Below, one piece after another: positions 11,620 through 58,706 of a stretch of DNA of 61,267 nucleotides. Position 1 is the first letter of the stretch. Each line of letters opens with the position of its first letter. A program made the translations under genes and the position numbers. The notes under the pieces were generated by a model that saw nothing but the letters and a program-made list of their open reading frames with translations, ran no database searches and was not told the origin of the DNA. Source of the DNA: Elusimicrobiota bacterium (GTDB lineage Bacteria; Elusimicrobiota; UBA8919); the NCBI GenBank assembly GCA_040757695.1, contig JBFLWK010000010.1:1-61267 (forward strand), in the 5' to 3' direction.

Positions 11620-11659
11620 TTTTTATTTTTATTTTAACTTTTATTTTAACTTTTTCTTA
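11234..11659. mobile_element. Hairpin element carrying an S23 four-helix-bundle ORF
   Basis: Left arm 11234-11276 (starts GGCAGGAAAAAAATAAAAAG, continues GTTAAAAGCTAAAATTAAAA) and right arm 11618-11659 (ATTTTTTATTTTTATTTTAA, then CTTTTATTTTAAC) are inverted copies with the S23 reading frame between them. The right arm provides the stop codon of the OmpA gene at 11646; the left end GGCA encodes the CLY of the signal peptide. This is the same architecture as at 51014-51553. Confidence 0.6.
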
Positions 11660-15610: not shown

Positions 15611-15631
15611 GTTTTCCTCCAAAATCTTTGT

Positions 15632-15668
15632 TTCGCGTTTTGTTTCGCGTTTTTTTCGCGTCAGTTTG
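15632..15668. repeat. GTTTCGCG-type repeat between the barrel gene and the FliF/FliG gene
   Basis: Three GTTTCGCGT-like words (GTTTCGCGTTTTGTTTCGCG, then TTTTTTTCGCGTC). The same unit is inserted in frame in ispE (18736) and nadB (19986). Here it occupies the 65-bp spacer between stop 15676 and start 15610. Confidence 0.85.
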
Positions 15669-17985: not shown

Positions 17986-18070
17986 GACAGGTTAAAATTA
18001 AAGGTATAAATTAAAATAAAATCCAGAATTTTAACCTTTAACCTTTAACCTTTAACCTTTAACTTGCCTT
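17986..18070. repeat. AACCTTT heptanucleotide hairpin element
   Basis: Left arm GACAGGTTAAAATTAAAGG, a central TAAATTAAAATAAAATCCAG, then about four copies of TTTAACC ending TTGCC. The arms pair over about 20 bp. The right end encodes the last residues (GKRQVKG) and the stop of ispE. Sister copies are at 24234, 33560, 35553, 51014, 51421 and 56050. Confidence 0.9.
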
Positions 18071-18909
18071 TTACCTGCCTTTACCGTGTGAACCAGCCAG
18101 ACGGTATAGCCGTCTTTTTTTAGCTGATTTTTTATTTCGTTGCCTTCCTTCTTATTTCTTACAATACCAAAAACACCACTACCACTACCGGACATTAATG
18201 AAAATTCCGCACCGTATTTAATCAATTTTTCTTTAATTTTTTTTATTTCAGGATAATGACGAATTATTACATCTTCTAATCTATTACCCAATTTGTTAAT
18301 TTTACTAATTTTTTGGGATTTTGTCAACAATGAATACGCAGATTTTGTAGAAATATCAAACTGTGGTTTAACCATTACATACCATTCTTTTTTTTTGATT
18401 TTGAGCGGGGTTAATTTATCACCGATACCTTCACCAAAACATCTACCACCAAGAACAAAAAACGGCACATCCGCACCAATTTGTTTCGCAATTTTGATGA
18501 ATTGAGTTTTGGTAAGATTAAGTTCCCATAATCTGTTAAGTCCTTTTAAGACCGCCGCAGCATCCGACGAGCCACCACCTAAACCTGCTCCAACAGGGAT
18601 TCTTTTTTTGATTTTTATCTCAACACCTTTTTTTATATTGAATTGTTTTTTTAGCAACATAGCAGCTTTATACACAAGATTTTTTTTGTCTGTCGGGATT
18701 TCAGGATTATCACAGCAAATTTTTATCATATTGTTGTTTCGTGTCTGTTTCGCGTGTTGTTTCGCGTCTGTTTCGCGTTTTTCTGTAATAAAAATATCAT
18801 CTGCCAATGAAATCTCTTGAAAAACGGTTCTTATATTATGATATCCGTCTTTTCGTTTATTTAACACTTCTAAAAACAGATTTATTTTTGCGTTTGCTTT
18901 AAGTTTCAT
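18052..18909 (-). CDS. ispE: 4-diphosphocytidyl-2-C-methyl-D-erythritol kinase
   Basis: IspE phosphorylates CDP-methylerythritol in the non-mevalonate isoprenoid pathway (GHMP kinase family). The N-terminus KANAKINLFLEVLNKRKDGY carries the substrate/ATP contact residues, and the glycine-rich loop KRIPVGAGLGGGSSDAAAVL is intact. The start is the ATG at 18909. An insertion EKRETDAKQHAKQTRNNN interrupts the region between FIT and MIKICCDNPEIPTDKKNLVY; it is encoded by GTTTCGCG repeats at 18736-18782, and normal proteins have only a few residues here. The C-terminal residues and stop come from the AACCTTT element. It is 5 bp from nadB. Confidence 0.95.
   Translation of the reverse strand: MKLKANAKINLFLEVLNKRKDGYHNIRTVFQEISLADDIFITEKRETDAKQHAKQTRNNNMIKICCDNPEIPTDKKNLVYKAAMLLKKQFNIKKGVEIKIKKRIPVGAGLGGGSSDAAAVLKGLNRLWELNLTKTQFIKIAKQIGADVPFFVLGGRCFGEGIGDKLTPLKIKKKEWYVMVKPQFDISTKSAYSLLTKSQKISKINKLGNRLEDVIIRHYPEIKKIKEKLIKYGAEFSLMSGSGSGVFGIVRNKKEGNEIKNQLKKDGYTVWLVHTVKAGKRQVKG
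18736..18782. repeat. GTTTCGCG repeat inserted in frame in ispE
   Basis: Tandem words GTTTCGTGTCTGTTTCGCGT followed by GTTGTTTCGCGTCTGTTTCG, with about 11-bp spacing, encode KRETDAKQHAKQTR. The same peptide occurs in nadB. Confidence 0.9.
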
Positions 18910-18913
18910 TTTC

Positions 18914-20488
18914 TTATAAAATTGTATTTTTCGGTTCTGGAAGTTTTTCAGGATAGTCAATATTGTAATGAAGCCCGCGTGATTCTTTGCGAGTGATTGC
19001 TGATTTTATTATCAGTTCTGCAACGGTAGCTATATTACGCAGTTCAATCAAATCCTGTGTAATGATAAAATCCCAATAGTACTGGTTGATTTCTTTTTTG
19101 AGATTTTTTATTCTTGACAGCGCTCTCTCCAATCGTTTATTAGACCGAACAATCCCAACATAGTTCCACATTAGCCGTCTGATTTCATCCCAGTTATGCG
19201 AAATGACTATCGCTTCATCAGGATGTGTTGCATAACCTGTTTTCCAGGTAGCGACTTTCGGCAATTTTTCTTTTTTCTGGTTGATAATTTTCTGCGCAGA
19301 TAGGTAAGAAAACACAAGCCCTTCTAAAAGCGAATTAGACGCAAGCCGATTCGCACCATGAAAACCACTACAGGCAACCTCGCCAATCGCGTAAAGATTA
19401 CGAATATTTGTTCGGCCGTAGATATCCGTCATCACACCGCCACAGATATAATGTGCAGCAGGCACCACAGGTATCGGCTTTTTTGTAATATCAATCCCAA
19501 AAGCGCGGCATTTTTTATAAATTGTTGGGAATCTGGTTTTAAGAAAACTTGATTGCTTGAATGAAATATCAAGATACACACAGTCATCACCTGATTTTTT
19601 TAACTCCGAATCAATCGCTCTGGCAACAATATCTCGCGGCGCTAACTCCTTTTTAGGATGATATTTTTTCATAAACCTTCTGTATTTTGAATCTACCAGA
19701 ACTGCACCTTCACCACGGAGCGCCTCCGAGATTAAAAACGATTTCGCTTCCGGATGATAAAGACAGGTCGGATGAAATTGCATAAACTCTAAATTGGCAA
19801 CACGACAGCCAGCACGATAAGCCATCGCAATTCCATCACCAGTCGCTACATCTGGATTTGATGTATAAAGATAAACCTTACCAGCACCACCTGTTGCTAA
19901 AATCGTTGTCTGCGCCAGAAATGTTTTTACTACACCTGCCCTCTTGTCCAAAACATACGCACCCCAACATCTATCAAACTTTTTCTTTCGCGTTTGTTTC
20001 GCGTTTTCTTTCGCGTCTGTTTCGCGTTTTTTTATCAGATTAACTGCAACAAAGTTCTCAAAAATTTTTATATTCGGCATTCTTTTAACCTGTCTGACAA
20101 GCACTGTCTCTATTGCTTTTCCTGTGTTATCTGTTGAATGTAAAACCCGTCTTCTTGAATGCCCACCCTCAAGCCCGATTGTTTTATCAAACTTCACACC
20201 CCATTCTTCAAGTTCGGCTAGCCGCTGCGGTGCCTGTTTTACAACAAGTTCTACAACCTCTTTTTTACATAGCCCTGCACCTGCAATAATTGTATCGTTA
20301 ATATGTTGTTCAAAAGAATCAGCCTGCTGACAAACACAGGCAATCCCACCCTGTGCTTCAGTTGTATTAGTATCAAAAATGCCTCTTTTCGTTATAACAA
20401 AAACAGAGCCGTATTTGTAAAGCCGAAGTGCTAAAGAAAGCCCTGCAATACCAGACCCAATAATCAAAAAATCAGATTTATATTCCAT
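18914..20488 (-). CDS. nadB: L-aspartate oxidase (NAD biosynthesis)
   Basis: NadB oxidises aspartate to iminoaspartate with FAD. The FAD motif is DFLIIGSGIAGLSLALRLYK; the catalytic part has ATGGAGKVYLYTSNPDVATG, FMQFHPTCLY and PVVPAAHYICGGVMTDIYGR with YAIGEVACSGFHGANRLAS. The helical C-terminal domain is complete. A 15-20 residue insertion (KRETDAKENAKQTRKKK) interrupts the surface region between LIK and CWGAYVLDK, encoded by GTTTCGCG repeats; it lies before GVVKTFLAQTTILATGGAG and should be outside the core. nadA and nadC are not in the window. The preceding gene is lepA. Confidence 0.94.
   Translation of the reverse strand: MEYKSDFLIIGSGIAGLSLALRLYKYGSVFVITKRGIFDTNTTEAQGGIACVCQQADSFEQHINDTIIAGAGLCKKEVVELVVKQAPQRLAELEEWGVKFDKTIGLEGGHSRRRVLHSTDNTGKAIETVLVRQVKRMPNIKIFENFVAVNLIKKRETDAKENAKQTRKKKFDRCWGAYVLDKRAGVVKTFLAQTTILATGGAGKVYLYTSNPDVATGDGIAMAYRAGCRVANLEFMQFHPTCLYHPEAKSFLISEALRGEGAVLVDSKYRRFMKKYHPKKELAPRDIVARAIDSELKKSGDDCVYLDISFKQSSFLKTRFPTIYKKCRAFGIDITKKPIPVVPAAHYICGGVMTDIYGRTNIRNLYAIGEVACSGFHGANRLASNSLLEGLVFSYLSAQKIINQKKEKLPKVATWKTGYATHPDEAIVISHNWDEIRRLMWNYVGIVRSNKRLERALSRIKNLKKEINQYYWDFIITQDLIELRNIATVAELIIKSAITRKESRGLHYNIDYPEKLPEPKNTIL
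19986..20036. repeat. GTTTCGCG repeat inserted in frame in nadB
   Basis: TTTCGCGTTTGTTTCGCG, then TTTTCTTTCGCGTCTGTTTC: four GTTTCGCG/CTTTCGCG words. On the minus strand it reads KRETDAKENAKQTRKK, nearly the same peptide as in ispE. Confidence 0.9.
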
Positions 20489-22479: not shown

Positions 22480-24218
22480 TAATGTTGTTTTTTTTGTTTC
22501 ACTTTTTTGATAAGCAGTTCGCGGCTGGCTTCAGTTAGAATCTTGTCAATTATTTTTTGGGCTTCTGAAAAATTGGTATGTCGTATCTCTTTTTTTATCT
22601 TTAAAACCGATGTAGATGCTACGCTGAAATGTTCAAGCCCTAAACCTAAAAGTATCTCGGTATACAATGAATCTGCTGCCATCTCGCCACACATAGAAAC
22701 CCATTTTCCTGCTTTTTTACCAGCGTCTATTATATTTTTTAACAGTCGTAAAACAGACAGATGCAGTGGTTCGTAAAGATGTGTTACATGCTCATTAACT
22801 CTATCCACCGCAAGTGTGTATTGAATTAAATCATTTGTACCAATTGACAAGAAATCTGCTTCTTTTGCAAGCAGGTCTACCGTTAATGCCGCAGATGGTA
22901 TCTCAATCATAATACCAACTTCCATATTCTCATCAAATGGGGGAGATTGAAGGGGAGATTGCATAGATTTATTTCTCAACTCCTGTTTTACTTCGTTTAG
23001 TATAACATTTGCAGCGCGGAGTTCATCAATCCCTGAAATCATCGGATACATCATTTTCACATTCCCGTATACAGATGCTCTTAAAATTGCTCTTAATTGT
23101 ATCTTAAAAATCTCCGGATGTTTCAGACAGAACCGTATTGCCCGCAAACCCAGAAACGGATTCCGTTCTTCTGATACCTGAAGCTGCGGTAATAGTTTAT
23201 CACCACCTAAATCTATTGTTCTAATAATCACAGGATTCGGGAATACTTTCTCTACAACAGTTCTGTAAGATGCTAATTGCTCTTCTTCTGATGGCAGTTC
23301 GTCCCGATTAATATACAGATATTCCGTTCTAAAAAGCCCGATACCTTCCGCACCGTGTGTAATTACTGACCTTATTTCTTCCGGGATTTCAATATTTGCG
23401 GCAACAACAATTTTTTTATCGTCTAAAGTGACAGCCGGCAGGTTCACAAACTGCGCTAATTCTTTTATTTCGGTATTATAGATCTCCTGCCTTCTTCTGT
23501 AATTAACAAGCGTATCTTTGTCAGGCTCAAGAATAACAACACCTTCTATGCCATCAACAATTACGATATTACCGTCTCTAACATAATGTGTAATATCTTT
23601 CATTCCGACAACTGCTGGGATTTCCATTGCTTGCGCCATAATCGCAGTATGCGAAGTTTTACCGCCAATATTTGTTGCAAACCCGATTACATTTTCTGCT
23701 TTGATTGCTATAGTGTCTGTTGGTGTCAGATTATTTGCAAAGACAATAGAGTTTTTATCAATCTCGCTGATAGTTTTTCGGTGAGTACCTGTTAAATGTT
23801 TCATAATTCGTCTGCCAACTTCAAAAATATCTTTACCACGTTCTCTGAAATACTCATCTTTTACCTGTTCAAAAACTTTTGAATACTTTTCTAAAATAAC
23901 CTGCAGTGCATACTCGGCATTGACTTTTTGGGTGCTAATTTCAGCAACAACCTCTTCTTTAATAAGCGGGTCGTCTGCAATAAACAGGTATGCATCAAAC
24001 AGTTTGATATGTTTTTTGCCGAGATGTTTTACCGCTTCGTGTTTCGTTTTCTCTATATCTGCTTTGGTATCAGTGATTGCTTTTTTGAACCTATCAACCT
24101 CTTTTTTTATATCCTCTTTGGCAACTGTCCGTTTAACTGCGTATAACACATCCTCACTAATAAGAACCGCTTTGCCAATCGCAATCCCCGGCGATGCTGC
24201 AATCCCTTTGTATAACAT
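22479..24218 (-). CDS. ptsI: PTS enzyme I (phosphoenolpyruvate-protein phosphotransferase)
   Basis: Enzyme I takes phosphate from PEP and passes it to HPr. The start is the ATG at 24218 after AAGGAG; the protein is 579 aa. The phosphohistidine site is GGKTSHTAIMAQAMEIPAVV (His at about 190), the PEP-binding signature is AEGIGLFRTEYLYI, and the C-terminal domain has FLSIGTNDLIQYTLAVDR and the active Cys in WVSMCGEMAAD. The insertion SMQSPLQSPPFDENMEV is a little longer than usual. It sits right downstream of HPr after the AACCTTT element, and overlaps lepA by 1 bp. Confidence 0.96.
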   Translation of the reverse strand: MLYKGIAASPGIAIGKAVLISEDVLYAVKRTVAKEDIKKEVDRFKKAITDTKADIEKTKHEAVKHLGKKHIKLFDAYLFIADDPLIKEEVVAEISTQKVNAEYALQVILEKYSKVFEQVKDEYFRERGKDIFEVGRRIMKHLTGTHRKTISEIDKNSIVFANNLTPTDTIAIKAENVIGFATNIGGKTSHTAIMAQAMEIPAVVGMKDITHYVRDGNIVIVDGIEGVVILEPDKDTLVNYRRRQEIYNTEIKELAQFVNLPAVTLDDKKIVVAANIEIPEEIRSVITHGAEGIGLFRTEYLYINRDELPSEEEQLASYRTVVEKVFPNPVIIRTIDLGGDKLLPQLQVSEERNPFLGLRAIRFCLKHPEIFKIQLRAILRASVYGNVKMMYPMISGIDELRAANVILNEVKQELRNKSMQSPLQSPPFDENMEVGIMIEIPSAALTVDLLAKEADFLSIGTNDLIQYTLAVDRVNEHVTHLYEPLHLSVLRLLKNIIDAGKKAGKWVSMCGEMAADSLYTEILLGLGLEHFSVASTSVLKIKKEIRHTNFSEAQKIIDKILTEASRELLIKKVKQKKQH

Positions 24219-24233
24219 AGAATCTCCTTCAGA

Positions 24234-24347
24234 GAGGTTAAAATTAAAGGTGTAAATTAAAATAAAAATAAAATCCAAAAATTTTAACCTTTAACCTTTT
24301 ACCTTTAACCTTTTACCTTTAACCTTTTACCTTTAACCTGCCTTTTT
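24234..24347. repeat. AACCTTT heptanucleotide hairpin element (long copy)
   Basis: Left arm GAGGTTAAAATTAAAGG, centre TAAATTAAAATAAAAATAAA, then many TTTAACC/TTTTACC copies (24284-24339) ending CTGCC. It lies between HPr and ptsI. Confidence 0.9.
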
Positions 24348-33559: not shown

Positions 33560-33662
33560 GAAGGCAGGTAAAAAGTATAAATAAAAGGTTAAAATTAAAG
33601 GTATAAATTAAAATAAAATCCAGAAATTTTACCCTTTACCCTTTAACCTTTAACCTGTCTTT
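33560..33662. repeat. AACCTTT heptanucleotide hairpin element
   Basis: Left GGCAGGTAAAAAGTATAA and AGGTTAAAATTAAAGG, centre TAAATTAAAATAAAATCCAG, right TTTACCC/TTTAACC copies ending CTGTC. It supplies the last residues and stop of rapZ. Confidence 0.9.
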
Positions 33663-35552: not shown

Positions 35553-35634
35553 AATCAGGTTAAAATTAAAGGTATAAATTAAAATAATATCCAGAAATTT
35601 TACCCTTTAACCTTTGCCCTTTAACTTGCCTTTA
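35553..35634. repeat. AACCTTT heptanucleotide hairpin element
   Basis: Left TCAGGTTAAAATTAAAGG, centre AAATTAAAATAATATCCAG, right TTTACCCTTTAACCTTTGCC then TTTAACTTGCC. It lies between ptsN and hprK and abuts the ptsN stop. Confidence 0.9.
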
Positions 35635-44482: not shown

Positions 44483-44564
44483 CAAATTCCAAATTCCAAA
44501 TCCCAAAAATTCCGAACCCGCATTGGAATACTTCAGTAGACTACCCCTTAAGGGGTAGTCTACT
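44483..44564. repeat. AAATTCC heptanucleotide run and a perfect 30-bp palindrome
   Basis: AAATTCC/AAATCCC words at 44483-44513 are followed by a palindrome at 44535-44564 with arms AGTAGACTACCCCTT and its complement. The stop codon TAG of the PorV gene (44562-44560) is inside the palindrome. It may act as the terminator for the 44560-53584 gene run. The same core occurs at 53627-53654 and at 59577. Confidence 0.9.
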
Positions 44565-45654
44565 CTGTTTCGGGTTTTTTATCTGCATCTATTAATTCTT
44601 TTGGTAATTTTTCTTCCTGTGGCTGTTCTTTTGCTTCTTTTTCTTCTTCCTCTGGTATTTCGGGTTTTATTTTATGTTTAGGCAGTGGTAGTGATTTACC
44701 AAATCGTAGCCCTGTTGTTATATAATGCGAGACACCTAAATCAGAATGCGGGACAAACGCATAATCCAGATAGAACCTATTTATTCGCAGACCGAACCCG
44801 CTTGTAAACCCTGTGTAATCGGCAAACTTCCGTTGGTTAATTTTCCAGCCGAACCTTAGCCACAACGGTTCTGTTAAATGGTATTCTACTGCGAGCCGCT
44901 GTTTTAATCCGCTATCGTTGGGCTGAATAACTTCAACAAGCAAAGTTGCTCTATGTGAGAAACCCCACGAGCCACCGAGTTTTAATGTAAGTGTTAGCGG
45001 GTCGTTTTCTTTATCAAACTTGATATTATTACCGATATTAACGACTGCAGCACCGAGTGAAATGCGTTGTTTAGGTTGAGCAATAAAGATACCGATATTA
45101 ACTGCGAAACCATCGGCTGATTTATCGTTCAATTTTTCTGCGATATTTCGGACACCTAACCCAACTGAAAACTCATTAGTAATTTTGTAGGCGCCACTCA
45201 AAAGAACCGACCAATCAATTATGTCAAAACTACCTTTATCATTCCCGTAAATATCCCGTTCTGTATCTTTACTATTCAGATATTTTCCATTCAGCCCGAC
45301 TACATATTTCTTTAACGGCTTTACAAAAGTTAGCGATTGCACCGATGTCTGTTCAAAATATGCCAGATACGATAGATATATTTCGTTATTATAGATATTA
45401 CCAACCCCTGCGGGATTATATTCAATAATCCCGGCATCTTTTGCATAGCCGGTATACGCTTCTGCGAGTGATGAAGCCCGTGCAGCGACAGGGATATTCA
45501 GGAACTGCCCTGATGTTGTCCCGTTGGTATAGGTAAAGATAGCGGAATAAAGGCAATGAAAAATGAAAAATGAAAAATGAAAAATGAAAGTCAAAAACAA
45601 TCCACAATTTTTAATTTTTAATTGATAATTTTTAATTGCTTTTAGAATTGTCAT
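44560..45654 (-). CDS. PorV/UPF0164-family outer-membrane beta-barrel protein
   Basis: A PorV-like barrel (PorV/PorQ family, the type IX secretion shuttle group) of 364 residues. The signal peptide (KNYQLKIKNCGLFLTFIFHF to CLYS) is the repeat cassette 45549-45643. The mature part begins AIFTYTNGTTSGQFLNIPVA and ARASSLAEAYTGYAKDAGII, with YNPAGVGNIYNNEIYLSYLA, the conserved N-terminal motif of this family. The C-terminal tail (KPEIPEEEEKEAKEQPQ) is a charged extension. It overlaps the protease gene by 4 bp, suggesting the barrel helps its export. Confidence 0.85.
   Translation of the reverse strand: MTILKAIKNYQLKIKNCGLFLTFIFHFSFFIFHCLYSAIFTYTNGTTSGQFLNIPVAARASSLAEAYTGYAKDAGIIEYNPAGVGNIYNNEIYLSYLAYFEQTSVQSLTFVKPLKKYVVGLNGKYLNSKDTERDIYGNDKGSFDIIDWSVLLSGAYKITNEFSVGLGVRNIAEKLNDKSADGFAVNIGIFIAQPKQRISLGAAVVNIGNNIKFDKENDPLTLTLKLGGSWGFSHRATLLVEVIQPNDSGLKQRLAVEYHLTEPLWLRFGWKINQRKFADYTGFTSGFGLRINRFYLDYAFVPHSDLGVSHYITTGLRFGKSLPLPKHKIKPEIPEEEEKEAKEQPQEEKLPKELIDADKKPETE
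45549..45643. repeat. Signal-peptide cassette, copy 1 (95-bp hairpin element)
   Basis: The plus strand starts AAAGGCAATG, then four ATGAAAA units, AGTCAAAAACAATCCACAAT and ends TTTTTAATTGCTTTT; its ends are inverted repeats. On the minus strand it encodes the PorV signal peptide. Confidence 0.95.
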
Positions 45655-47390
45655 TTTATCAATGTTATTTTTCCACGAACTTTTTTGCTACCGATATCAA
45701 CTACATAATAGTAAAGCCCTGAGGCAACCAAATCGCCGTTATCATTTTTACCATCCCAGACCGCGAGACCATTATCAACTGATATTTCGTTTGTGATATG
45801 TTTCAAGTATCTTACTGGCATTGCGGCTAGATTGTAAATTGTTACATTGAACTCACTGCCTCTGTATTTTTCAGGTAATCGTATAGTAACAAACTCATGT
45901 TTTCGTGGATAGAACGGGTTGGGATAATTTTTTACTTTTAGCGGTGCAGTCCATGCAGTAGCCAGATTGCCACTTAATGCCTTATAGACATTTAGCCGAC
46001 CCCAGCCGGTATATTTATCCCAGCCGGGCACATCAAGGTTATCACAGGACGCTTCTAATATTTTTTTTATATCTGCTGGTGTCCGTGCAGGATTTTGCGA
46101 AATCAACAGCCCACAAACTCCGGCAACATATGGTGATGCCATAGAAGTGCCGTCCTCAAACTCATAATAAGATGAATTCCGTTTCCAGTCATTCTCCGAA
46201 TCAGACCAACTATATTCTGCATATGTACTGTAAACAGATGCACCCGGTGCTAACAGGTCAAGTTTTATCCCATAATTTGAGCCCCACGAATAGCCATTGA
46301 CTTCAGAAACTCTTTCATCATAAATATCAGACGCACCGACTGAAATCACACCATCATAACCCGCAGGATAACTGATAGAATTTATACCATCATTCCCAGC
46401 CGACGCAACAATAACGACATTTTTGTCTACTGTATAATCAACCGCATCTTTTACAAACCTTGATTGAATATAACCGCCTAAAGACAGATTTAGAACATCC
46501 GCACCATTATCAACAGCATATTTTATCCCCGCTGCGATATTTGATGCAGTAGCACCTGTACGGAAAGCATTAGCATCAAAAATCTTTACAATCATTATCT
46601 TTGATGTCCAGGAAACACCGGCAATACCGGTTGAATTATTCACAACTGCGGCGGCAATCCCTGCAACATGCGTTCCATGCCCGACAGTATCAATCGGCCG
46701 CGGGTCGCCATATTCTTCTTCCAGATTTGAATTGGGAGCATCCTGTCCATAAAGGATATTCACACCATAATAGTCCTCAATATAGCCGTTGTTATCATCG
46801 TCAATTTTATTACCATATGTATCTTTTGTATTGAGATAGATATTGGCTTCCAAATCCGGATGCCGCCAATCAACCCCGCTATCAATCACTGCGATAATAG
46901 AGGTTGTTACACCTTTAGAAAAAAGTGTGTTACTGCTTGTCCAGGCATCATACCAGTCAAGATATTTATCATCTGGTAACGCCCACTGTGCTGAATAAGA
47001 AGAATCATTGACCTGATAAGCCTTCATCAAATAATTCGGCTCTGCGTAAACAACATCAGGGTCGGCTGATAACATGGATACCATATCCTGAATACTGCTT
47101 CCATCAGGTATAGATACACGGAATACATTATTGAACTTCATATCCTGTATTGTTTTTGTATCGTATTTCGTGTTTATTATATTGATATCTACACTTTCTT
47201 TTACACGAACAATTATCTCACCACCTGCGACATCCACAGATTTAGAAATTGACGGAATGAATATGGATGCTTTTTGATAGCAGTAGAGGCAATGAAAAAT
47301 GAAAAATGAAAAATGAAAAATGAAAGTCAAAAACAATCCACAATTTTTAATTTTTAATTTATAATTTTTAATTGCTTTTAGAATTACCAT
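45651..47390 (-). CDS. Subtilisin-like serine protease (S8) with a type IX-like C-terminal tail
   Basis: A 579-residue secreted protease. The signal peptide is cassette copy 2 (CLYC-YQ). The propeptide (EIIVRVKESVDINIINTKYD; VVYAEPNYL) is followed by the S8 catalytic triad: Asp in VIDSGVDWRHPD (about 170), His in VGHGTHVAGIAAAVVNN (about 238) and Ser in DGTSMASPYVAGVCGL. The C-terminal 90 residues (LKVKNYPNPFYPRKHEFVTI; VRYLKHI; NGLAVWDGKNDNGDLVASGL YYYVV) match the NYPNPF-type sorting/FlgD-like Ig domain used by type IX secretion. Its start overlaps the preceding PorV-like gene. Export through PorV-like barrels is inferred. Confidence 0.93.
   Translation of the reverse strand: MVILKAIKNYKLKIKNCGLFLTFIFHFSFFIFHCLYCYQKASIFIPSISKSVDVAGGEIIVRVKESVDINIINTKYDTKTIQDMKFNNVFRVSIPDGSSIQDMVSMLSADPDVVYAEPNYLMKAYQVNDSSYSAQWALPDDKYLDWYDAWTSSNTLFSKGVTTSIIAVIDSGVDWRHPDLEANIYLNTKDTYGNKIDDDNNGYIEDYYGVNILYGQDAPNSNLEEEYGDPRPIDTVGHGTHVAGIAAAVVNNSTGIAGVSWTSKIMIVKIFDANAFRTGATASNIAAGIKYAVDNGADVLNLSLGGYIQSRFVKDAVDYTVDKNVVIVASAGNDGINSISYPAGYDGVISVGASDIYDERVSEVNGYSWGSNYGIKLDLLAPGASVYSTYAEYSWSDSENDWKRNSSYYEFEDGTSMASPYVAGVCGLLISQNPARTPADIKKILEASCDNLDVPGWDKYTGWGRLNVYKALSGNLATAWTAPLKVKNYPNPFYPRKHEFVTIRLPEKYRGSEFNVTIYNLAAMPVRYLKHITNEISVDNGLAVWDGKNDNGDLVASGLYYYVVDIGSKKVRGKITLIK
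47286..47379. repeat. Signal-peptide cassette, copy 2
   Basis: The plus strand starts GAGGCAATGAAAAATG, four ATGAAAA units, AAACAATCCACAATTTTTAA and TTTAATTGCTTTT. It encodes the protease signal peptide; it is nearly identical to copies at 45549, 49761 and 58553. Confidence 0.95.
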
Positions 47391-48601
47391 CTATACCTCG
47401 CGGTTATAATTATTCGCTGTATTGTTTCATCAACTCTGCGGTCATCAACACTTTTAATAGACCCGTCAGTTTTATAATTAACATTTACATTTTCTGCAGA
47501 TGACCTTTTTCCGAATTCATAGCCAAAATCTAAATCAAACAGTGGTAACTTAAAACCACTCCCAACAGTAAATGTATAGAATCGCGGTATAATTTTTTGT
47601 TGTTCAAATCCGCCGTGTTCCCAGTTTTTTTCATATTTATCCCAAGTATAATAAAAACTGCTGGTATAGAAACCATATCGGATTGCGAGGTAATCATAAA
47701 GCCATTGCTCAAAACCAACTCTGTAATCGGTTGTGTTGTAAAGTTTCACATTTTTCCAATTCATGCGATTAGTCTCAACTGTAAAAAGCGGTGCAAGTTT
47801 CCCTCGGAATTGATATGAAAAACCAAACCCAAATCCTTCTGGGATTTTAATTGTTTCGGTTGACTTCTGCAAATTGAGTGTCGCTTTTGCTCTGTAATAT
47901 CCGCCGAATTTTAACTGCCCGGTTTCGTAAAGGTATCCGACCAGAATTGAATTACCGTCAATAGATATTTTTTCATTACTGGATTCCCTTTCGCCGTTTA
48001 ACATATTGTAAGTAAGTCCAACCGAAAAACGGTCTGTCGCTTTCCAACCAATCGCAGCTGAATTAGTCCACAGGTCCCCTGATGAGTCAATTTTATTTTC
48101 GTATTCCAGCGTAGTTCTATCATAAATTGTTTCTGAATACCTGTATGAATAATTTACAACAGGCGCTCTCCCACCAGCAATATAAAAACCTAACGGCAGT
48201 TTGGCAGAAATAGAGCCTTCGTTAAACTGGTAATATGCTGGATTATTTTTTACCGTTGGCAGTCCGTAATTATTTGTGTATCTATCTGAAACAAGCACTG
48301 CGGCATTTGAAACTGATACTTGACAGTATTTCATTGAAGTAGCGGTAAGTGCAGCAGGGTTTGTAAAAATTGCAGAACTATCGTTAGAAACAGTGATAGA
48401 ATTACAGCCCATAGCGAGCGAGCGGGCAGAATAGCCACAGACAACATCACCGAGATAGTTATAGCCAAGCGAAGTGTAGCCGTAGAGGCAGGGTGTAGGC
48501 AGTAGGGTATAGGCAGTAGTGAAAAGAAAAAGATAGCCAATAGCCAAAATGATTTTGCTACACCCTACATCCTTCACCCTATACCCTGCTTTTTTTACCA
48601 T
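47384..48601 (-). CDS. PorV/UPF0164-family outer-membrane beta-barrel protein
   Basis: A 405-residue barrel. The signal peptide (GYLFLFTTAYTLLPTPCLYG) is encoded by the CCCTATA-type palindrome at 48484-48595. The mature start YTSLGYNYLGDVVCGYSARS LAMG has the family motif, followed by NSITVSNDSSAIFTNPAALT, and the protein ends ITARYRW, a C-terminal aromatic. It overlaps both neighbours by 7 bp. Members of this gene set may act as redundant shuttle barrels. Confidence 0.83.
   Translation of the reverse strand: MVKKAGYRVKDVGCSKIILAIGYLFLFTTAYTLLPTPCLYGYTSLGYNYLGDVVCGYSARSLAMGCNSITVSNDSSAIFTNPAALTATSMKYCQVSVSNAAVLVSDRYTNNYGLPTVKNNPAYYQFNEGSISAKLPLGFYIAGGRAPVVNYSYRYSETIYDRTTLEYENKIDSSGDLWTNSAAIGWKATDRFSVGLTYNMLNGERESSNEKISIDGNSILVGYLYETGQLKFGGYYRAKATLNLQKSTETIKIPEGFGFGFSYQFRGKLAPLFTVETNRMNWKNVKLYNTTDYRVGFEQWLYDYLAIRYGFYTSSFYYTWDKYEKNWEHGGFEQQKIIPRFYTFTVGSGFKLPLFDLDFGYEFGKRSSAENVNVNYKTDGSIKSVDDRRVDETIQRIIITARYRW
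48484..48595. repeat. GTAGGGTA/CCCTATA palindrome encoding a signal peptide
   Basis: AGAGGCAGGGTGTAGGCAGT and AGGGTATAGGCAGTAG on the left, CTACACCCTACATCC and CACCCTATACCCTGCTTTT on the right are inverted repeats. It encodes the signal peptide of the barrel at 47384; sister of 17536-17640. Confidence 0.9.
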
Positions 48602-49866
48602 TTTACTGTTCCTGTTAGTGTTAGCCGTTTTGTATAGTCGTCAACAGTTTCTAAATTGATTAACGGGTATGCGGCGTTTTCTTCAACTGGGAACAGCCGT
48701 GTTTCGGATGTTATTCGTCTCATAAAATACTGGAGTGCTATATCCCACTGAATAATCCATAATTTTAACCCACTACCGATAGAGACCACTGATGTTTGTA
48801 CACCTTTTCGTGTCTGGTCTTGAACAACCGCCAAGCCGTATCTGAATGGAATATCGTGTTTAAGCCAGTGTTCTGCACCGAAATGCCATGAAAGTGTATT
48901 ACAGTATCCGATATCAGTCCATTTACTATTGGCAACTTTTTGCTCGGCACTACCCCACCAAGTATAATCAAGTTGTATAAGAAATGTTGGTCTTGTGATA
49001 CCTCGGAATTTGAATGCGAACCCTGCCGAAAGTGTAGCCGGAAATCTATATTCATATCTGGACATTTGTCCATTTATAGAATAATCATTTTTAACTGACA
49101 ACAGATTATTCAACGCTATACCGAGTTTAAGTTCTTCTGATTGTAAAACGGTACCTATTCTGAACCCGCTGCCTGAAAACGAGTTATTAACAATACTGGT
49201 TGTTCGGCTGGTTTCTGAGCCCGTTTGAGGACTGAATAAAATTTCTGTAATTTTTCGGTCTGGTTTGCCGGTGATTAAAAAACCAGCTACACCTAATTTT
49301 AGCCATTCAACTGGGATATAACTTGCACCACCGCCGTAGATATAGATTTCGCCGTCAGCTGAGATACTATTCTTTTCAACTACTCGGATTTCACCATATA
49401 CATTTTCGGTATAATGGTAATTAGAATCCAAAATTTTGATTGCGCCTATTGCTACAGCCAGTTTCTGTTTTATCGGGCAGACTGAAACTGCGCCCGAGGT
49501 TGGCAAAAGATACAGATTAGAGTTTGATATAGTTGTCTGTTCTGCATCATTATGGAGTCGGCGTTCATATCCATTTATAAGTTCGTTAGTTTGAGATATA
49601 CTAACGCGGCTGTCTACTGAAAGTTCTGACGGATTAGCGAAGATTGATGTCGGCTCACCGCCTGACAGAACAGACACCTCGCCAACTGCGGCATTTCGGG
49701 CTGTGAACCCACCAACAGAGTCGCCCAAACCCAGCACCGCACCGCGGTAGGTGTAGCCGTAAAGGCAATGAAAAATGAAAAATGAAAAATGAAAAATGAA
49801 AGTCAAAAACAATCCACAATTTTTAATTTTTAATTTATAATTTTTAATTGCTTTTAGAATCACCAT
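48595..49866 (-). CDS. PorV/UPF0164-family outer-membrane beta-barrel protein
   Basis: A 423-residue barrel, signal peptide from cassette copy 3 (FHFSFFIFHCLYG). The mature start YTYRGAVLGLGDSVGGFTAR NAAVGEVSVLSGGEPTSIFA NPSELS is typical for the family, and it ends TLTGTVKW. It is a neighbour of two similar barrels and overlaps the gene after it by 7 bp. No specific substrate known. Confidence 0.83.
   Translation of the reverse strand: MVILKAIKNYKLKIKNCGLFLTFIFHFSFFIFHCLYGYTYRGAVLGLGDSVGGFTARNAAVGEVSVLSGGEPTSIFANPSELSVDSRVSISQTNELINGYERRLHNDAEQTTISNSNLYLLPTSGAVSVCPIKQKLAVAIGAIKILDSNYHYTENVYGEIRVVEKNSISADGEIYIYGGGASYIPVEWLKLGVAGFLITGKPDRKITEILFSPQTGSETSRTTSIVNNSFSGSGFRIGTVLQSEELKLGIALNNLLSVKNDYSINGQMSRYEYRFPATLSAGFAFKFRGITRPTFLIQLDYTWWGSAEQKVANSKWTDIGYCNTLSWHFGAEHWLKHDIPFRYGLAVVQDQTRKGVQTSVVSIGSGLKLWIIQWDIALQYFMRRITSETRLFPVEENAAYPLINLETVDDYTKRLTLTGTVKW
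49761..49855. repeat. Signal-peptide cassette, copy 3
   Basis: AAAGGCAATG, ATGAAAA units, AATCCACAATTTTTAATT, end TTTAATTGCTTTTAG; encodes the signal peptide of the barrel at 48595. Confidence 0.95.
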
Positions 49867-51419
49867 CTATACCTCACTGTTGTAATAAGCCGCGTGGTTG
49901 TATCATACACGGTATCACGCTGGTCTGAAAAAAACAATCTTTCCTGGGTTGATTCCTGCCAGGCATAACTTCCTGCTATATCTATTTCAACCAGCAGTGT
50001 TGGGATAGCGAACCCGCAACCAATAGAGAGTGCTGAATTTACACCACCATTTTTTATATATGATGGCAGATATGAAAACCCGTATCTTACTGTCATCCCT
50101 TCAAGTGGCAGATGCTCAAACCCGAGCGAGAATGCTAATACATCGCGGAATAACGGGTTTGTGGTTGACCAGTCAGCGAAACTCGCATCTATAAAAACAG
50201 CACAGTTGTTTTTATCTCTAAAATTATACTTTATACCAGCGGAAATTGAATTCGGATATTTATATTCTATTGTATAAGTTGAACTTGAGTTTAAGATATT
50301 GCCGGTTGTATCTATTTGTTTGACTTCTCGTTTAATTTCAGCCGAGTACTTATAAGCCAATCCGAGAGACATAATATCTTCAACCGAACACAACACTCCG
50401 ATATTGAATCCGTTTCCTGACAATTTAGATATTTCGTTGATTTTCCTGATGATATCAGGTGCGCCAGAAGTACCGAAAGTATTCAATTCCTGTTCTGATT
50501 TTATATCACCGTTTTTCAGCAACCCAGCAACACCTAAATTGAGCGATGTAAGTAACTGGTAGTTCACTGCAAGCCCGTAATCAAACAGATTCCCATGCTG
50601 GTCAATTGTATCCTGCCCGTTAGAATTCCCGTAGCCTCTATCCCGGACAGATTTTTCTTGAAACACATAATTAAAGTCAATTGCTTGTGCAGCACCAAGC
50701 CCGAATACAAACTCGCGAATTGACGACCACAGCATCCCTATAGATGTCGGCTGAAAAAAAATGTTCCGATTAGTTGTATACGATGTTGCTATATAAGAAT
50801 GGTTTCGTTTATCAGAAGTCCATACAACTGCGGGTGAGAAACTGAATACACCGTGATTATCACTACCAAGTTCCATACAAGCTGGATTAGTAAAAACGGC
50901 TGCGACATCCTGAGATACTGTAGTTGATACGCTACCGAGCCCGACGGATTCTGCGGATAGCCCGCGTGTGATACCTCCGATTCCGTAGTAGGACTCAAGT
51001 GAAGTATAGCTGTAAAGACAGGTTAAAGGGATAAATGACAGGTTAAAATTAAAGGTTAAAATTAAAATTAAAATTAAGGTAGAACGAACTTTTTTGACGG
51101 TTGAAGTAAAAATTTTTATGAGTTCATCACATTCTTTAAATAGATTTGCTACCTCTTCTTTTTTAACTAATTCAGCACCAAGTAATAATCTGAGCCAGTA
51201 TCTTGTTTCTAATGTCTCTTTCCGAGAAATATTTATACTATGGGAGAAATCCTTTTTTGTTAACCCTGCATATGCTTCCTCAGTATTAGCACCAACTGAT
51301 GTCCCAGAGCGCAACATCTGTTCTGCAATAATTCGGGCTATTTGGTTTTGGGGTAATTTCTGTACCAGTTTGATTATTTGCAAGGCAAATTTATATGTTC
51401 GTTCTTTTAGGTCCTGCAT
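49860..51419 (-). CDS. S23-type four-helix-bundle domain fused in frame to a PorV-like outer-membrane barrel
   Basis: Residues 1-115 are an S23 domain (LKERTYKFALQIIKLVQKLP; TSVGANTEEAYAGLTKKDFS; RKETLETRYWLRLLLGAELV), nearly identical to that at 10453. Residues 116-138 (STLILILILTFNFNLSF...) form a hydrophobic stretch that ends TCLYS and is made from TTAAAAT repeats. The remainder is a PorV/UPF0164 barrel (YTSLESYYGIGGITRGLSAE SVGLGS; TVSQDVAAVFTNPACMEL; C-terminal TTVRYRW). There is no ATG/GTG/TTG between S23 and the signal peptide. If translated whole, an S23 domain would precede the signal peptide, and export would need it as a cytoplasmic head. It fits insertion of an S23 element into the signal peptide codons. 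Confidence 0.85.
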   Translation of the reverse strand: MQDLKERTYKFALQIIKLVQKLPQNQIARIIAEQMLRSGTSVGANTEEAYAGLTKKDFSHSINISRKETLETRYWLRLLLGAELVKKEEVANLFKECDELIKIFTSTVKKVRSTLILILILTFNFNLSFIPLTCLYSYTSLESYYGIGGITRGLSAESVGLGSVSTTVSQDVAAVFTNPACMELGSDNHGVFSFSPAVVWTSDKRNHSYIATSYTTNRNIFFQPTSIGMLWSSIREFVFGLGAAQAIDFNYVFQEKSVRDRGYGNSNGQDTIDQHGNLFDYGLAVNYQLLTSLNLGVAGLLKNGDIKSEQELNTFGTSGAPDIIRKINEISKLSGNGFNIGVLCSVEDIMSLGLAYKYSAEIKREVKQIDTTGNILNSSSTYTIEYKYPNSISAGIKYNFRDKNNCAVFIDASFADWSTTNPLFRDVLAFSLGFEHLPLEGMTVRYGFSYLPSYIKNGGVNSALSIGCGFAIPTLLVEIDIAGSYAWQESTQERLFFSDQRDTVYDTTTRLITTVRYRW

Positions 51420-51553
51420 ATTTTAACCATAAAGTCAGGTTAAAGGTTTAAATGACAGGTTAAAATTAAAATAAAATCCAGAATTTTACCCTTTAACCTT
51501 AAACCTTTAACCTCTTATTTATACCTTTTATTTTTACCTTTAACCTGCCTTTT
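51014..51553. mobile_element. Hairpin element carrying an S23 four-helix-bundle ORF (second copy)
   Basis: Left arm 51014-51081 (starts AAAGACAGGTTAAAGGGATA, then AAATGACAGGTTAAAATTAA and repeated TTAAAAT) and right arm 51421-51553 (TTTTAACCATAAAGTCAGGT, AACCTTT copies, end CTGCC) enclose the S23 ORF. The arms belong to the AACCTTT family. The architecture equals 11234-11659, but the arm sequence differs, so only the organisation is shared. Confidence 0.65.
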
Positions 51554-53654: not shown

Positions 53655-54097
53655 TTTCCAGTTTTATATTCTTCTTTTTTATCACGAATATATGCGGTTT
53701 CTTTATCTCGGGAACTCACCTGAATCAATTCAGCAATTTTGGCTGTTCGTTGGTCTATTAGTTCCCAAATCCTGGCTGCTCGTTCATCTATTTTAGCTGT
53801 TTGTTGACGTGTTTTAGCTATTTCATCATCTATTTTAGCTATTCGTTCATCTATCTTAGCTATTCGTTCATCTATCTTAGCTGTTCGTTCATCCATCTTA
53901 GCTGTTCGTTCATCCATCTTAGCTGTTCGTTCATCCATCTTAGCGAGCAACTCATTGGTTTCTCGCCTGCCTTCTTCTATCATTCTCTTTGCACGTTCAT
54001 CTTCTTTTTCTATCATTTTGTTTGTTTGCCGAGAAAGAATAGAATTTTGGAGTAGCGCAAATAAGCCTAAAATTAAGCCAAAAGCTATTATCTCCAT
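53651..54097 (-). CDS. Membrane-anchored coiled-coil protein with MDERTAK heptad repeats
   Basis: A 148-residue protein with an N-terminal helix (IIAFGLILGLFALLQN, about 3-18) followed by a long charged coiled coil. Seven or more copies of MDERTAK / IDERIAK (21-bp DNA units) lie at about residues 55-110. The start at 54097 has GGGGGG upstream. The stop lies in the palindrome at 53627. The heptads are stretched like those at 59709 (KMDERAEQRHQE) and at 1545. The function is not known; a scaffold or tether is possible. Confidence 0.8.
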   Translation of the reverse strand: MEIIAFGLILGLFALLQNSILSRQTNKMIEKEDERAKRMIEEGRRETNELLAKMDERTAKMDERTAKMDERTAKIDERIAKIDERIAKIDDEIAKTRQQTAKIDERAARIWELIDQRTAKIAELIQVSSRDKETAYIRDKKEEYKTGK

Positions 54098-56097: not shown

Positions 56098-57005
56098 TTT
56101 GCTAATCTCGTTTTGGCTTCTGTATCATACTCGGTACCTAATAATTCCTGCCATTGCTGAACCGCTTTTTGTTTGTAATTTACTATTGAGAATATACCGG
56201 TAGATTTAGCCATTTTCTCATAACAGATAGCCAGTTTCCGTTTAATCGCGGCTGATACTGTATTTTTTTCGGTATATGCTAAATATACATCTAATTCCAG
56301 CCCAGGCTGGTTCAGTGCAGAATACAAAGTTGCTAATGTCTCATAAAGTTCAAGATGATTCGTGAATTTTTTTATGCCATCTTGTAAGAGTTGGACCGCA
56401 TCATAATCAAATCTTTCCTGTGAACTCAACTCTGCAAGTGTTATGTAATCGTTAACATTTTTTAGTAGCGCTATTTTAGAAAGTTGTTCCCAATCCTGCT
56501 CAATACAGAGATAGTTCTGTGATGAGATTTGGACTGCTGCAAACCCTTTTTTTATTAACTCCCAGTTATGGCATCTGATTTTATTCTCAATATCTTTGTA
56601 AAATACAAGCCCGTATTTTCCTCCGTCCCCATTTTCATAGACCAAAGCGACATCTCTGCCTTCAAGCCGTTGGGCGGTATACTTTTTTGCGTCGTCAGTA
56701 GTAGTTTTTACACCAAGCAACTTGATTTGCTCACCAGTTGAGGCAAGCACAATATCACCGCTATACACATAACTGATATGAAACTCTTCTGTTTTATGCG
56801 GGATATTCCAATCAACATACAAAAAATTATCCGGGTTGATTTCTATAGAGGCAGCGAATAGCAAATAGCAAATAGCAAATAGCAAATAGCAAATAGCAGT
56901 GAGCAGGCGAATAGGCGAGCAGGCGAAATGGCGAATAGAAAACCAACCTCTAACTTCTCTACGCTCTACGCTATTTCTTAATCGCTTAATCACTGACTTG
57001 CTCAT
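56079..57005 (-). CDS. Exported protein with nuclease-like (SNase) fold and a TPR tail
   Basis: A 308-residue protein. The signal peptide (LTAICYLLFAICYLLFAAS) is encoded by the AAATAGC repeat. Residues about 75-160 resemble a staphylococcal nuclease OB-fold (YSGDIVLASTGEQIKLLGVK TTTDDAKKYTAQRLEGRDVA; YGLVFYKDI; ELIKKGFAAV). Catalytic Arg/Glu residues of SNase are not obvious, so it may be inactive. Residues 190-308 are TPR-like (LYETLATLYSALNQPGLELD). The start overlaps the stop of the lamin-tail gene (ATGA). Confidence 0.72.
   Translation of the reverse strand: MSKSVIKRLRNSVERREVRGWFSIRHFACSPIRLLTAICYLLFAICYLLFAASIEINPDNFLYVDWNIPHKTEEFHISYVYSGDIVLASTGEQIKLLGVKTTTDDAKKYTAQRLEGRDVALVYENGDGGKYGLVFYKDIENKIRCHNWELIKKGFAAVQISSQNYLCIEQDWEQLSKIALLKNVNDYITLAELSSQERFDYDAVQLLQDGIKKFTNHLELYETLATLYSALNQPGLELDVYLAYTEKNTVSAAIKRKLAICYEKMAKSTGIFSIVNYKQKAVQQWQELLGTEYDTEAKTRLANLTKDR
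56856..56898. repeat. AAATAGC heptanucleotide repeat, six units, encoding a signal peptide
   Basis: Six tandem copies of (G/A)AATAGC. It encodes AICYLLFAICYLLFA on the minus strand. The following GGCGAATAGGCGAGCAGGC is a similar run with 7-8 bp period. Confidence 0.95.
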
Positions 57006-58654
57006 ATTTTTCGTGCGACTACAACTCGTTTTGCGGCAGTTTTTATATTGCCTGTTTTTTTGTTCTGAACTTCTATATGGACGATATACACACCAATAGA
57101 TACTGTAGCGCCGTCTTCATCTTTACCATCCCAGTTGACTGTATTTGCGCCGCCTGCAGGCACATCTATTTGGTCAAGCAAAATTTTTACCAGCCGACCG
57201 TTAGTATCAAACACTCGGACTGTTACCTGGCTATTTGCCTCTACATTGTACGCAATCACACAATACGAGTACTTACCATCTCTTGCAGGTGAGAATGGCG
57301 ACTGGAATACTTCCAAAATTTTTGTAGTTTCTTTCGCAGCAGTCCCGTAAGGTCCCTGCCCTTTTGTCGCACTGCCTTCATACCAATCGGTTTTGGTATT
57401 CGTATCTAACGGCTGACCTGTTTGAGATGACGGGTCTATTTTTCGGGTAATTGAGCCGGTAGTAGATTCAGACCAACTGACTGAGCCATGAATATAATAG
57501 TCCTCCGTTCCAACTGCATCTGTTACATCAGAAGGATGAGCCCACTGACCGGTTGAAACTGCGGTATCATACACAGATTGTTCGCCGGTATAAGACGAAC
57601 TATCTTCTGCAAAACTGACAAAGTCAACCATAGTCCCGTCGGCATTTTTGAGTGTAAGATTATTATCAGTCCCTGTCAGCCCCGGTGTTGATTCGTCTGA
57701 ATATAAATCAATATAGCCGTTTCCGTTTGTATCAGTTGTTTCATCAGTTCCCGCTTGTGAGCAATGCACAACCAGATACATCTTTGCAGCAGTATTCAGG
57801 TTCGGTAATGTTTTGATAACTGTTTTACCCTCATACAATTTTGCACCTGTGATATTAGAGCCGTTTGTTATGTAAATCTCTACAAAATCGCCGCCTGAAA
57901 TACCTGGTGCGACTTCGGTTATTTTACCATAGATATTGCCGGCACCTGCGGGAGGAGTCACCGGGAATGCCGGGTTTTTACGTCCTTCTGTACGGTCTGA
58001 AGTCGCCTGCCAGTCGGTTTTTGCGACATCTTCAGCATCCGTATCGGTTGACTTATCATCGCGTGCAAGCGATTTAGATGCAGACGAGCCAAGTTCTGCA
58101 GCGCTACCTTCGTCAACCGCGCCAGTCCATTGATTAGCCGAAATCGCATCTGAAAATAACGAATCGCCAGCAGTCCATTTATCATCACCATTACAGAACA
58201 CCACAGCATCTACAATATCACTGAGCGAGTTTCTTAAAACAATCACATTATCCGTGCCGGTTAGCCCTGTAATTCCTACACCGGTATAAAACTCCTTATA
58301 GCCATCGCCATCATCAGCAGTAATTTCATCCGCAGTTGAATCATTAAACTTTAACACAAAATAAGCACCGGATGAGATTGTGACTGCTGGGAATGTTTTA
58401 CACGGATTAGCGCCACCGGATAGTTTTGCAGCTTCTACAGACCACTGGTCAAGATTGATATCGCCACTGGAACAGTTATAGAACTCTATCCAGTCCTTGC
58501 CACCTGAGATATTCGCAGTAAGTTCGTTGATACGAACTGGTGAAGCAGCATAGAGGCAATGAAAAATGAAAAATGAAAAATGAAAAATAAAAGTCAAAAA
58601 CAATCCACAATTTTTAATTTTTAATTTATAATTTTTAATTGATGTTTTTATCAT
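57002..58654 (-). CDS. Secreted protein with lamin-tail domains and a FlgD-like C-terminal domain
   Basis: A 550-residue protein starting at ATG 58654. The signal peptide is cassette copy 4 (KNYKLKIKNCGLFLTF to CLYA). Two lamin-tail (LTD) domains follow: VRINELTANISGGKDWIEFY NCSSGDINLDQWS and GKITEVAPGISGGDFVEIYI. A C-terminal FlgD-like Ig domain (QVTVRVFDTNGRLVKILLDQ; VNWDGKDEDGATVSIGVYIV) is a type IX-like tail. The function is probably surface adhesion or matrix; it overlaps the next gene by 4 bp. Confidence 0.85.
   Translation of the reverse strand: MIKTSIKNYKLKIKNCGLFLTFIFHFSFFIFHCLYAASPVRINELTANISGGKDWIEFYNCSSGDINLDQWSVEAAKLSGGANPCKTFPAVTISSGAYFVLKFNDSTADEITADDGDGYKEFYTGVGITGLTGTDNVIVLRNSLSDIVDAVVFCNGDDKWTAGDSLFSDAISANQWTGAVDEGSAAELGSSASKSLARDDKSTDTDAEDVAKTDWQATSDRTEGRKNPAFPVTPPAGAGNIYGKITEVAPGISGGDFVEIYITNGSNITGAKLYEGKTVIKTLPNLNTAAKMYLVVHCSQAGTDETTDTNGNGYIDLYSDESTPGLTGTDNNLTLKNADGTMVDFVSFAEDSSSYTGEQSVYDTAVSTGQWAHPSDVTDAVGTEDYYIHGSVSWSESTTGSITRKIDPSSQTGQPLDTNTKTDWYEGSATKGQGPYGTAAKETTKILEVFQSPFSPARDGKYSYCVIAYNVEANSQVTVRVFDTNGRLVKILLDQIDVPAGGANTVNWDGKDEDGATVSIGVYIVHIEVQNKKTGNIKTAAKRVVVARKI
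58553..58650. repeat. Signal-peptide cassette, copy 4
   Basis: GAGGCAATGAAAAATG, three more ATGAAAA/ATAAAA units, AATCCACAATTTTTAATT and TTTAATTGATG at the right. The right edge (TTGATGTTTTTATC) differs from copies 1-3 (TTGCTTTTAG), so it has a drifted terminus. Confidence 0.9.
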
Positions 58655-58667
58655 ATTTTTATTTTGC

Positions 58668-58706
58668 AATGAACTACCCTGTGGCAGAGCCACAGGGTAG
58701 TTCATT
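58668..58706. repeat. Perfect inverted repeat with 18-bp arms
   Basis: Arms AATGAACTACCCTGTGGC and its complement flank AGA. It lies between the lamin-tail gene and the truncated nucleotidyltransferase. A terminator or an element end is possible. Confidence 0.9.

Follow-up and report, generated by a model that had tools for sequence, protein, structure and literature searches.

The locus described here raises the question of why a gene for a FadL/PorV-like barrel carries an S23 domain enclosed by a hairpin, and whether gene and hairpin travel together. In the window (the whole stretch of 61,267 nucleotides that was analysed), a profile search of ORF 49860-51419 on the minus strand returned PF05635 (S23) at residues 6-105 (E 5.9e-21); the same domain matched TIGR02436 (E 1.8e-27) and PDB 2rld (E 1.1e-16). 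The barrel part behind it matched PF03349 (OMPP1/FadL/TodX, Toluene_X; E 8.6e-10, 38.1 bits against a cut-off of 29.7). This order, with S23 placed between complementary arms, bears out the original prediction of an S23 hairpin in a PorV-like barrel gene. The arms are a low-complexity inverted pair of 47 nt (51014-51060/51506-51552; 81% complementary), and a further inverted pair lies nearby (51431-51466/51517-51552). A 41-nt direct repeat (51013-51053/51430-51470, 93% identity) implies two copies of the 3' arm with S23 between them, and the layout at 51014-51553 is 5' arm, loop, 3' arm, S23 and 3' arm again:

49860-51419, minus strand: fused ORF of S23, signal peptide and FadL/PorV-like barrel (ORF and profile matches)
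51078-51419, minus strand: S23 / 23S_rRNA_IVP (four helix bundle) domain (PF05635, TIGR02436, PDB 2rld)
51506-51552, minus strand: 5' arm (S23 sense), AAAGGCAGGTTAAAGG..., outer end AAAGGCA (inverted pair with 51014-51060)
51431-51466, minus strand: 3' arm, copy 1, closing a hairpin of the S23-less type upstream of the S23 ATG (same family as the dispersed hairpins)
51014-51060, minus strand: 3' arm, copy 2, 3' of S23, coding for the hydrophobic h-region and ending CLYS (inverted and direct repeat)

S23 is the only gene between these arms, and no transposase was found there. A scan of the whole window at Rfam gathering thresholds gave 0 matches, and the insert does not lie in a 23S rRNA gene. 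The arm ends AAAGGCA/TGCCTTT recur in the genome from which the window comes (the source genome), with totals in the window near chance (7 seen against 4.0 expected for one of the two 7-mers and 14 against 11.1 for the other).

A second S23 copy is encoded in ORF 10453-11619, with a TPR protein behind it:

11278-11619, minus strand: S23 domain fused to a signal peptide and TPR protein (PF05635, E 5.5e-22)
11618-11647, minus strand: 5' arm, A/T-rich (inverted pair)
11245-11274, minus strand: 3' arm, ending CLYA (inverted pair)

The two S23 domains had been described as nearly the same; they are homologous, but at 73% protein identity this wording is too strong. Their arms belong, as proposed, to different families, those at 10453 being A/T-rich. 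The hydrophobic stretches end as originally read, with CLYA in the TPR gene and CLYS in the barrel gene, where the stretch between S23 and barrel ends LSFIPLTCLYS. Both endings are read from the repeat end ...TGCCTTTATGC or a variant, and the same end closes hairpins that contain no S23. Two unrelated genes therefore each have an S23 hairpin at their signal peptide. Copying of the whole locus, which the original prediction had named as the contrary outcome, would make both loci copies of one larger locus and would fit the identity between the S23 domains. However, the flanking proteins (TPR and FadL) are unrelated, the arms differ and synonymous sites between the two domains are saturated (pS 0.78), so that we give plain duplication practically no credence.

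Chance had been considered an unlikely source of two such cases, and a comparison of 192 S23 copies with two control sets and with mismatched pairs supports this. In the source genome (2.89 Mb, 264 contigs), PF05635 had 15 matches at E <= 1. When 220 nt per side were read, inverted low-complexity tandem repeats were seen at nearly all S23 copies, built of a unit that changes from copy to copy (GCTTCTT, CACTTAAC, AAGAACTC, ACACATA, ACACCCT, CTATCTG and others). One copy (G000:C22:25177-25492), with AGGGTAT/AAACCCT arms, is split over two reading frames and is probably decaying. For the wider test, loci were drawn from the source genome, its phylum, 80 named genome contigs of many phyla (two of them archaeal, Methanophagales) and 32 viral contigs. 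The named-genome contigs are the best 80 of 587, ranked by similarity to 7 S23 proteins of this phylum, and therefore represent S23s close to the query. A search with an S23 profile found 227 hits across 194 loci; 192 of the hits were kept after removal of hits with <60 profile positions, <150 nt on one side or duplicate sequence. For the arm score, the 250 nt preceding S23 were aligned locally to the reverse complement of the 250 nt that follow; the cut-off of 34 was fixed at the first run, a second one of 27 was added later, and control ORFs were chosen mechanically.

Strong arms (score >=34) were present at 109 of the 192 S23 copies: 7/10 in the source genome, 37/68 in the phylum, 45/88 in named genomes and 20/26 in viral contigs. 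The same score was reached by 0.6% of 823 small control ORFs (80-150 aa), 1.9% of 359 longer ones (>=150 aa) and 0.37% of 3814 mismatched S23 flank pairs. At >=27 the figures were 159/192 against 1.8% (small ORFs), 2.8% (longer ORFs) and 1.2% (mismatched pairs), and the S23 and control scores differed strongly (Mann-Whitney 2e-90 and 3e-70). The low values for mismatched pairs mean that each arm matches its own partner and not S23 arms in general. Scores below 27 were found for 33 of the 192 copies, a few of which have no visible arms. Among ten extra plasmid S23 loci, 6/6 scored 42-63, L274, L276 and L277 scored 38-55 and L275 scored 20; phage records gave no S23 match. A hairpin-arm setting is common to S23 genes in most bacterial groups sampled. 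Two of the extra loci have conspicuous surroundings. At 1980-2348 of Anabaena sp. 90 pANA02 (L277, arm score 55), S23 separates cas6 from cas4 in an operon of a type I-D CRISPR system. In the Riemerella anatipestifer record NZ_CP081930 (L274), which is labelled a plasmid, S23 lies between suf genes near lepA; these neighbours look chromosomal, and the record may be mislabelled or misassembled.

The arms have a characteristic period. In the 150 nt next to S23, self-similarity peaks at lags 7, 14 and 21, with an excess over shuffles of 0.084, 0.059 and 0.050; control flanks lack the signal at lag 7 (0.007-0.008) and lag 14 (0.001-0.004). The dominant period, determined at 159 loci, is 7 in 81, 14 in 27, 8 in 27 and 9 in 12. 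The repeat unit differs from locus to locus, and no end sequence appears to be conserved across loci. Among the 109 S23 copies with strong arms, 100 have more G than C in the 5' arm.

This G-rich, C-poor composition would suit a model in which the arms fold the transcript for excision by RNase III, making the insertion harmless, with mobility secondary. RNase III excision of 23S rRNA IVSs is reported (PMC4990558), and the S23 stretch at 51014-51553 folds slightly better on the S23 strand (z -3.66) than on the opposite strand (z -2.75). In both window copies, however, S23 and the host protein share one reading frame, and cutting would break the message. In addition, a wobble test on 159 loci showed no excess of G.U over A.C mismatches (262 vs 287, p 0.31), which favours a DNA-level cause of complementarity, e.g. 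slippage and copying between arms, and it showed no strand preference, which leaves an RNA-hairpin step without support from this test. We regard the RNA model as improbable.

Hairpins of the same kind occur without S23. Four window genes (44560, 45651, 48595 and 57002) have as their signal peptide a 92-bp hairpin that is 96-99% identical among them. The 60 nt on either side are 19-40% identical (72% in one upstream pair), and the proteins after CLY are unrelated except for a weak match between two (E 8e-4). Other S23-less hairpins in the window belong to the AGGTTAAA family, which is that of the 51014-51553 arms:

49761-49852, minus strand: 92-bp hairpin (AATGAAA/AATTTTT), signal peptide of ORF 48595-49866
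47285-47376, minus strand: 92-bp hairpin (AATGAAA/AATTTTT), signal peptide of ORF 45651-47390
45549-45640, minus strand: 92-bp hairpin (AATGAAA/AATTTTT), signal peptide of ORF 44560-45654
58552-58643, minus strand: 92-bp hairpin (AATGAAA/AATTTTT), signal peptide of ORF 57002-58705
24218-24345, minus strand: AGGTTAAA hairpin
17986-18076, minus strand: AGGTTAAA hairpin
33586-33656, minus strand: AGGTTAAA hairpin
35557-35634, minus strand: AGGTTAAA hairpin

Searches of the source genome gave 56 hits for the AATGAAA hairpin, six of which match most of the query length at 97-100% identity, and 49 hits for the AGGTTAAA hairpin. Each family occupies ~40 places, some of which were hit on both strands. 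One member of the AGGTTAAA family (51440-51552) is the hairpin that adjoins the barrel-gene S23, and one of the AATGAAA family (C7:47344-47410) lies next to an S23 fragment (C7:47147-47320), so that each of the two large S23-less families has a relative with S23 in this genome.

TPR-protein orthologues were matched in 15 of 41 relative genomes, and their gene starts were compared by eye. G008 and G040 have no visible array at this position and G003, from another genus, carries an S23 insert at the same signal peptide. S23-less arrays are clear and built of other units in G001, G004 and G006, and A/T-rich and less clear in G005 and G002. Such arrays in several relatives would fit a model in which STRR-like low-complexity hairpins are independent and S23 merely lands or survives in their loops. 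The far greater number of S23-less than of S23 hairpins in the source genome and the complete hairpin that adjoins the S23 gene in the window element point in the same direction.

Filled and empty versions of a site were compared on near-identical plasmids and on viral contigs. S23 was found on 30 plasmid records, mostly cyanobacterial, and seven comparisons were obtained, six cyanobacterial plasmid and one viral:

Comparison 1: Trichormus/Scytonema filled, Aulosira, N. linckia and Microchaete empty; exact 5-bp duplication GTAAT
Comparison 2: Calothrix filled, three empty; clean duplication absent
Comparison 3: Nostoc ATCC 53789 pNsp_c; TAATG/TTATG
Comparison 4: Nostoc ATCC 53789 pNsp_a; TTCTA with a one-base gap allowed
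Comparison 5: Aulosira; junctions not clean
Comparison 6: Calothrix PCC 7716; junctions not clean
Comparison 7: viral contigs L170-172 filled, L278 empty (located with an empty-site pattern); TCCTT common to both, neighbouring bases changed

The empty allele of comparison 1 reads AAAAAGTAATTAACAAAT, and the filled allele reads AAAAAGTAAT, then the insert (AAATCAGAATTCAG...S23...GAGTTCTTCTTT), then GTAATTAACAAAT. Across the seven, the target duplication was exact in one, approximate in three and not visible in three. Four other viral empty-site patterns gave no match, and plasmid neighbour searches for L259 and L275 did not find an empty site. In all seven comparisons the empty records lack both S23 and the arrays, which means that arms and gene behave as one insert. 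Moreover, the arm family is retained among related plasmid S23 genes that occupy different sites. Both results argue against the passenger model, which we consider unlikely, though less so than RNA-level excision. They also bear on the original proposal that the S23 ORF is reused with different arms: the arms do differ, but they are not independent of S23, being absent together with it. The original interpretation is thus partly supported: the arms travel with the S23 gene, as this joint absence and the shared arm family indicate, while the unit of which they are built evolves rapidly.

Comparison of S23 genes between different plasmid sites gave dN/dS of 0.10-0.14; the near-identical pair L254/L264 gave 0.86, with very few changes. 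These ratios indicate that S23 is under purifying selection. At the comparison-1 site, Nostoc sp. C052 pC052_E (L263) has a truncated S23 remnant with a 5' arm (~2105-2237); in related plasmids this site is filled in two and empty in three. In Trichormus variabilis ATCC 29413 plasmid C (L254), a TnpB gene (1-796) that most of the related plasmids listed do not have lies ~2.2 kb away from the S23 insert.

Taken together, we think it probable that S23 and the inverted arms on its two sides make up one small (~0.45-0.55 kb) mobile element that has no known transposase. Four findings go beyond the original prediction: the arms are a general feature of S23 genes, they repeat with a period of 7 nt, the 3' arm is duplicated, and S23-less hairpins that encode signal peptides are dispersed in the genome. 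In the mechanism that we propose, S23 would bind the hairpin in its folded state, either in DNA or in RNA, and would serve as the element's own mobility or maintenance factor, with a host or other enzyme cutting and joining, perhaps through a short staggered cut (~5 nt). Recognition of the arms would depend on their shape and the register of their repeats, not on sequence, and slippage with copying of one arm from the other could keep complementarity while the unit drifts. S23-less hairpins would have arisen by deletion or would be close relatives mobilised in trans. Signal peptides may be favoured landing sites in the source genome because translation of the T-rich arm gives a hydrophobic stretch (with CLYA, CLYS or CLYG at its end) that replaces the lost signal peptide; in the window element, S23 would be read through into the arm-coded signal peptide.

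The distribution of S23 in the phylum was compared with that of possible partner genes. Y1_Tnp was found in 31/48 genomes with S23 and in 47/150 without (p 7e-5; p 0.003 without the family of the source genome), a stronger co-occurrence than that of reverse transcriptase (12/48 vs 24/150, p 0.20) or the control transposase DDE_Tnp_1 (12/48 vs 23/150, p 0.13). Y1 (REP-associated tyrosine) transposases, which recognise hairpins, could in principle move S23 elements in trans. However, 17/48 genomes with S23 have no Y1 match, many Y1 genes have GGGGACRG-type arms of their own, and a 7-nt array lies near only 1/19 of them. IS200/605-type Y1 elements are not known to make a target duplication, a further point against this model, which we judge highly improbable. 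The Y1 transposase was rejected as mobiliser since its flanks, despite the co-occurrence, are unlike S23 arms. Inverted arms of the GGGGACRG type flank many of the Y1_Tnp genes of the phylum (L279-L298), and 12/19 score >=27.

Period-7 arrays are commoner in genomes of the phylum that have S23: 25 were found in 10/20 stretches of 20 kb from S23-positive genomes and 5 in 2/20 stretches (370 kb in all, two of them short) from S23-negative genomes, four of these in one genome (p 0.004, uncorrected for kinship). For period 8 there were 8 in 7 stretches against 0 (p 0.002, likewise uncorrected), whereas for periods 5, 6, 9, 11 and 13 the S23-positive and S23-negative stretches were alike. Arrays of this type are known as the short tandemly repeated repetitive (STRR) sequences of cyanobacteria, which are 7-nt intergenic tandem arrays, and 7-nt tandem intergenic arrays are present here too, with 27 arrays in the window. 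The Beggiatoaceae TAACTGA repeats are likewise 7-nt intergenic tandem arrays with one dominant unit (PMC4679880). Unlike the arms of S23, both are described as direct repeats, with no link to S23 or to inverted partners.

Other known systems share single features with the S23 element. REP/BIME with RAYT (Y1) and MITEs are also multi-copy hairpin elements with small non-autonomous copies, but the S23 element has no Y1 gene in or beside it, and its arms are built of repeat units. Rickettsia palindromic elements are small in-gene, in-frame palindromes; like the RU repeats, they resemble the S23-less hairpins in this respect. Neither contains S23 or is built of heptamers, whereas here near-identical hairpins serve four genes. 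In enterobacteria, RU-2 supplies a portion of one predicted signal peptide (PMC2759123) and is a precedent for a small mobile repeat within a signal peptide. S23 itself has solved relatives in 2gsc and 2rld, with five chains each. Avd of diversity-generating retroelements is needed for retrohoming and is a related four-helix-bundle pentamer; the Avd model NF033474 matched one S23 at E 3e-6. The source genome (G000), unlike such a retroelement, has no reverse transcriptase (RVT_1) match at E <= 1e-8. A resemblance of PF05635 to Avd has been noted (PMC10053308).

The closest parallel is the 23S rRNA IVS, in which an S23 ORF also lies inside a stem of terminal inverted repeats. IVSs with an S23 ORF occur in the 23S rRNA of Leptospira, Xanthomonas and Brucella in addition to that of Coxiella. 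The Coxiella IVS has a 28-bp stem, an S23 ORF and, directly before it, tandem heptamers (GACAGAT) whose number varies between strains; the same source describes the Xanthomonas S23 protein as a homopentamer toroid, recalls that IVSs were earlier proposed as mobile or selfish and leaves their origin open (PMC4990558). The inserts described here differ in lying in protein genes and intergenic regions of chromosomes, plasmids and viral contigs, and in having low-complexity arms with a locus-specific unit. An exact search of the collected S23 loci for three 23S motifs, a weak test, gave no match. 23S rRNA IVSs look like the rRNA-borne form of the S23 element and could be the same element landed in rRNA. 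Among the papers listed by searches of an open-licence library, none describes heptamer arms as a general feature of S23 genes in its title or opening abstract.

Very many genomes have an annotated S23 gene ('four helix bundle protein') to which no function is assigned. Together with heptamer hairpins and filled and empty sites, S23 as part of a mobile hairpin offers one testable answer both for its role and for the origin of IVSs, as well as a source for heptamer repeats. Within one genome, the small hairpins spread near-identical signal peptides among different exported proteins. A broader reading, which we put forward tentatively and with somewhat less than even confidence, is that S23 genes may be the single protein of a bacteria-wide mobile class whose ends are defined by shape and 7-nt register, not sequence. 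S23 would then be the mobility factor, much of the STRR-like heptamer load would be S23-less debris, signal-peptide landings would act as portable export signals and 23S rRNA IVSs would be a special case.

The window also contains repeats of other periods. Three arrays (15627-15661, 18732-18778 and 19981-20033) have an 11-nt unit ending TTTCGCG, and a 21-nt tandem repeat at 53775-53944, present in 8 copies, codes for a repeated 7-residue stretch.
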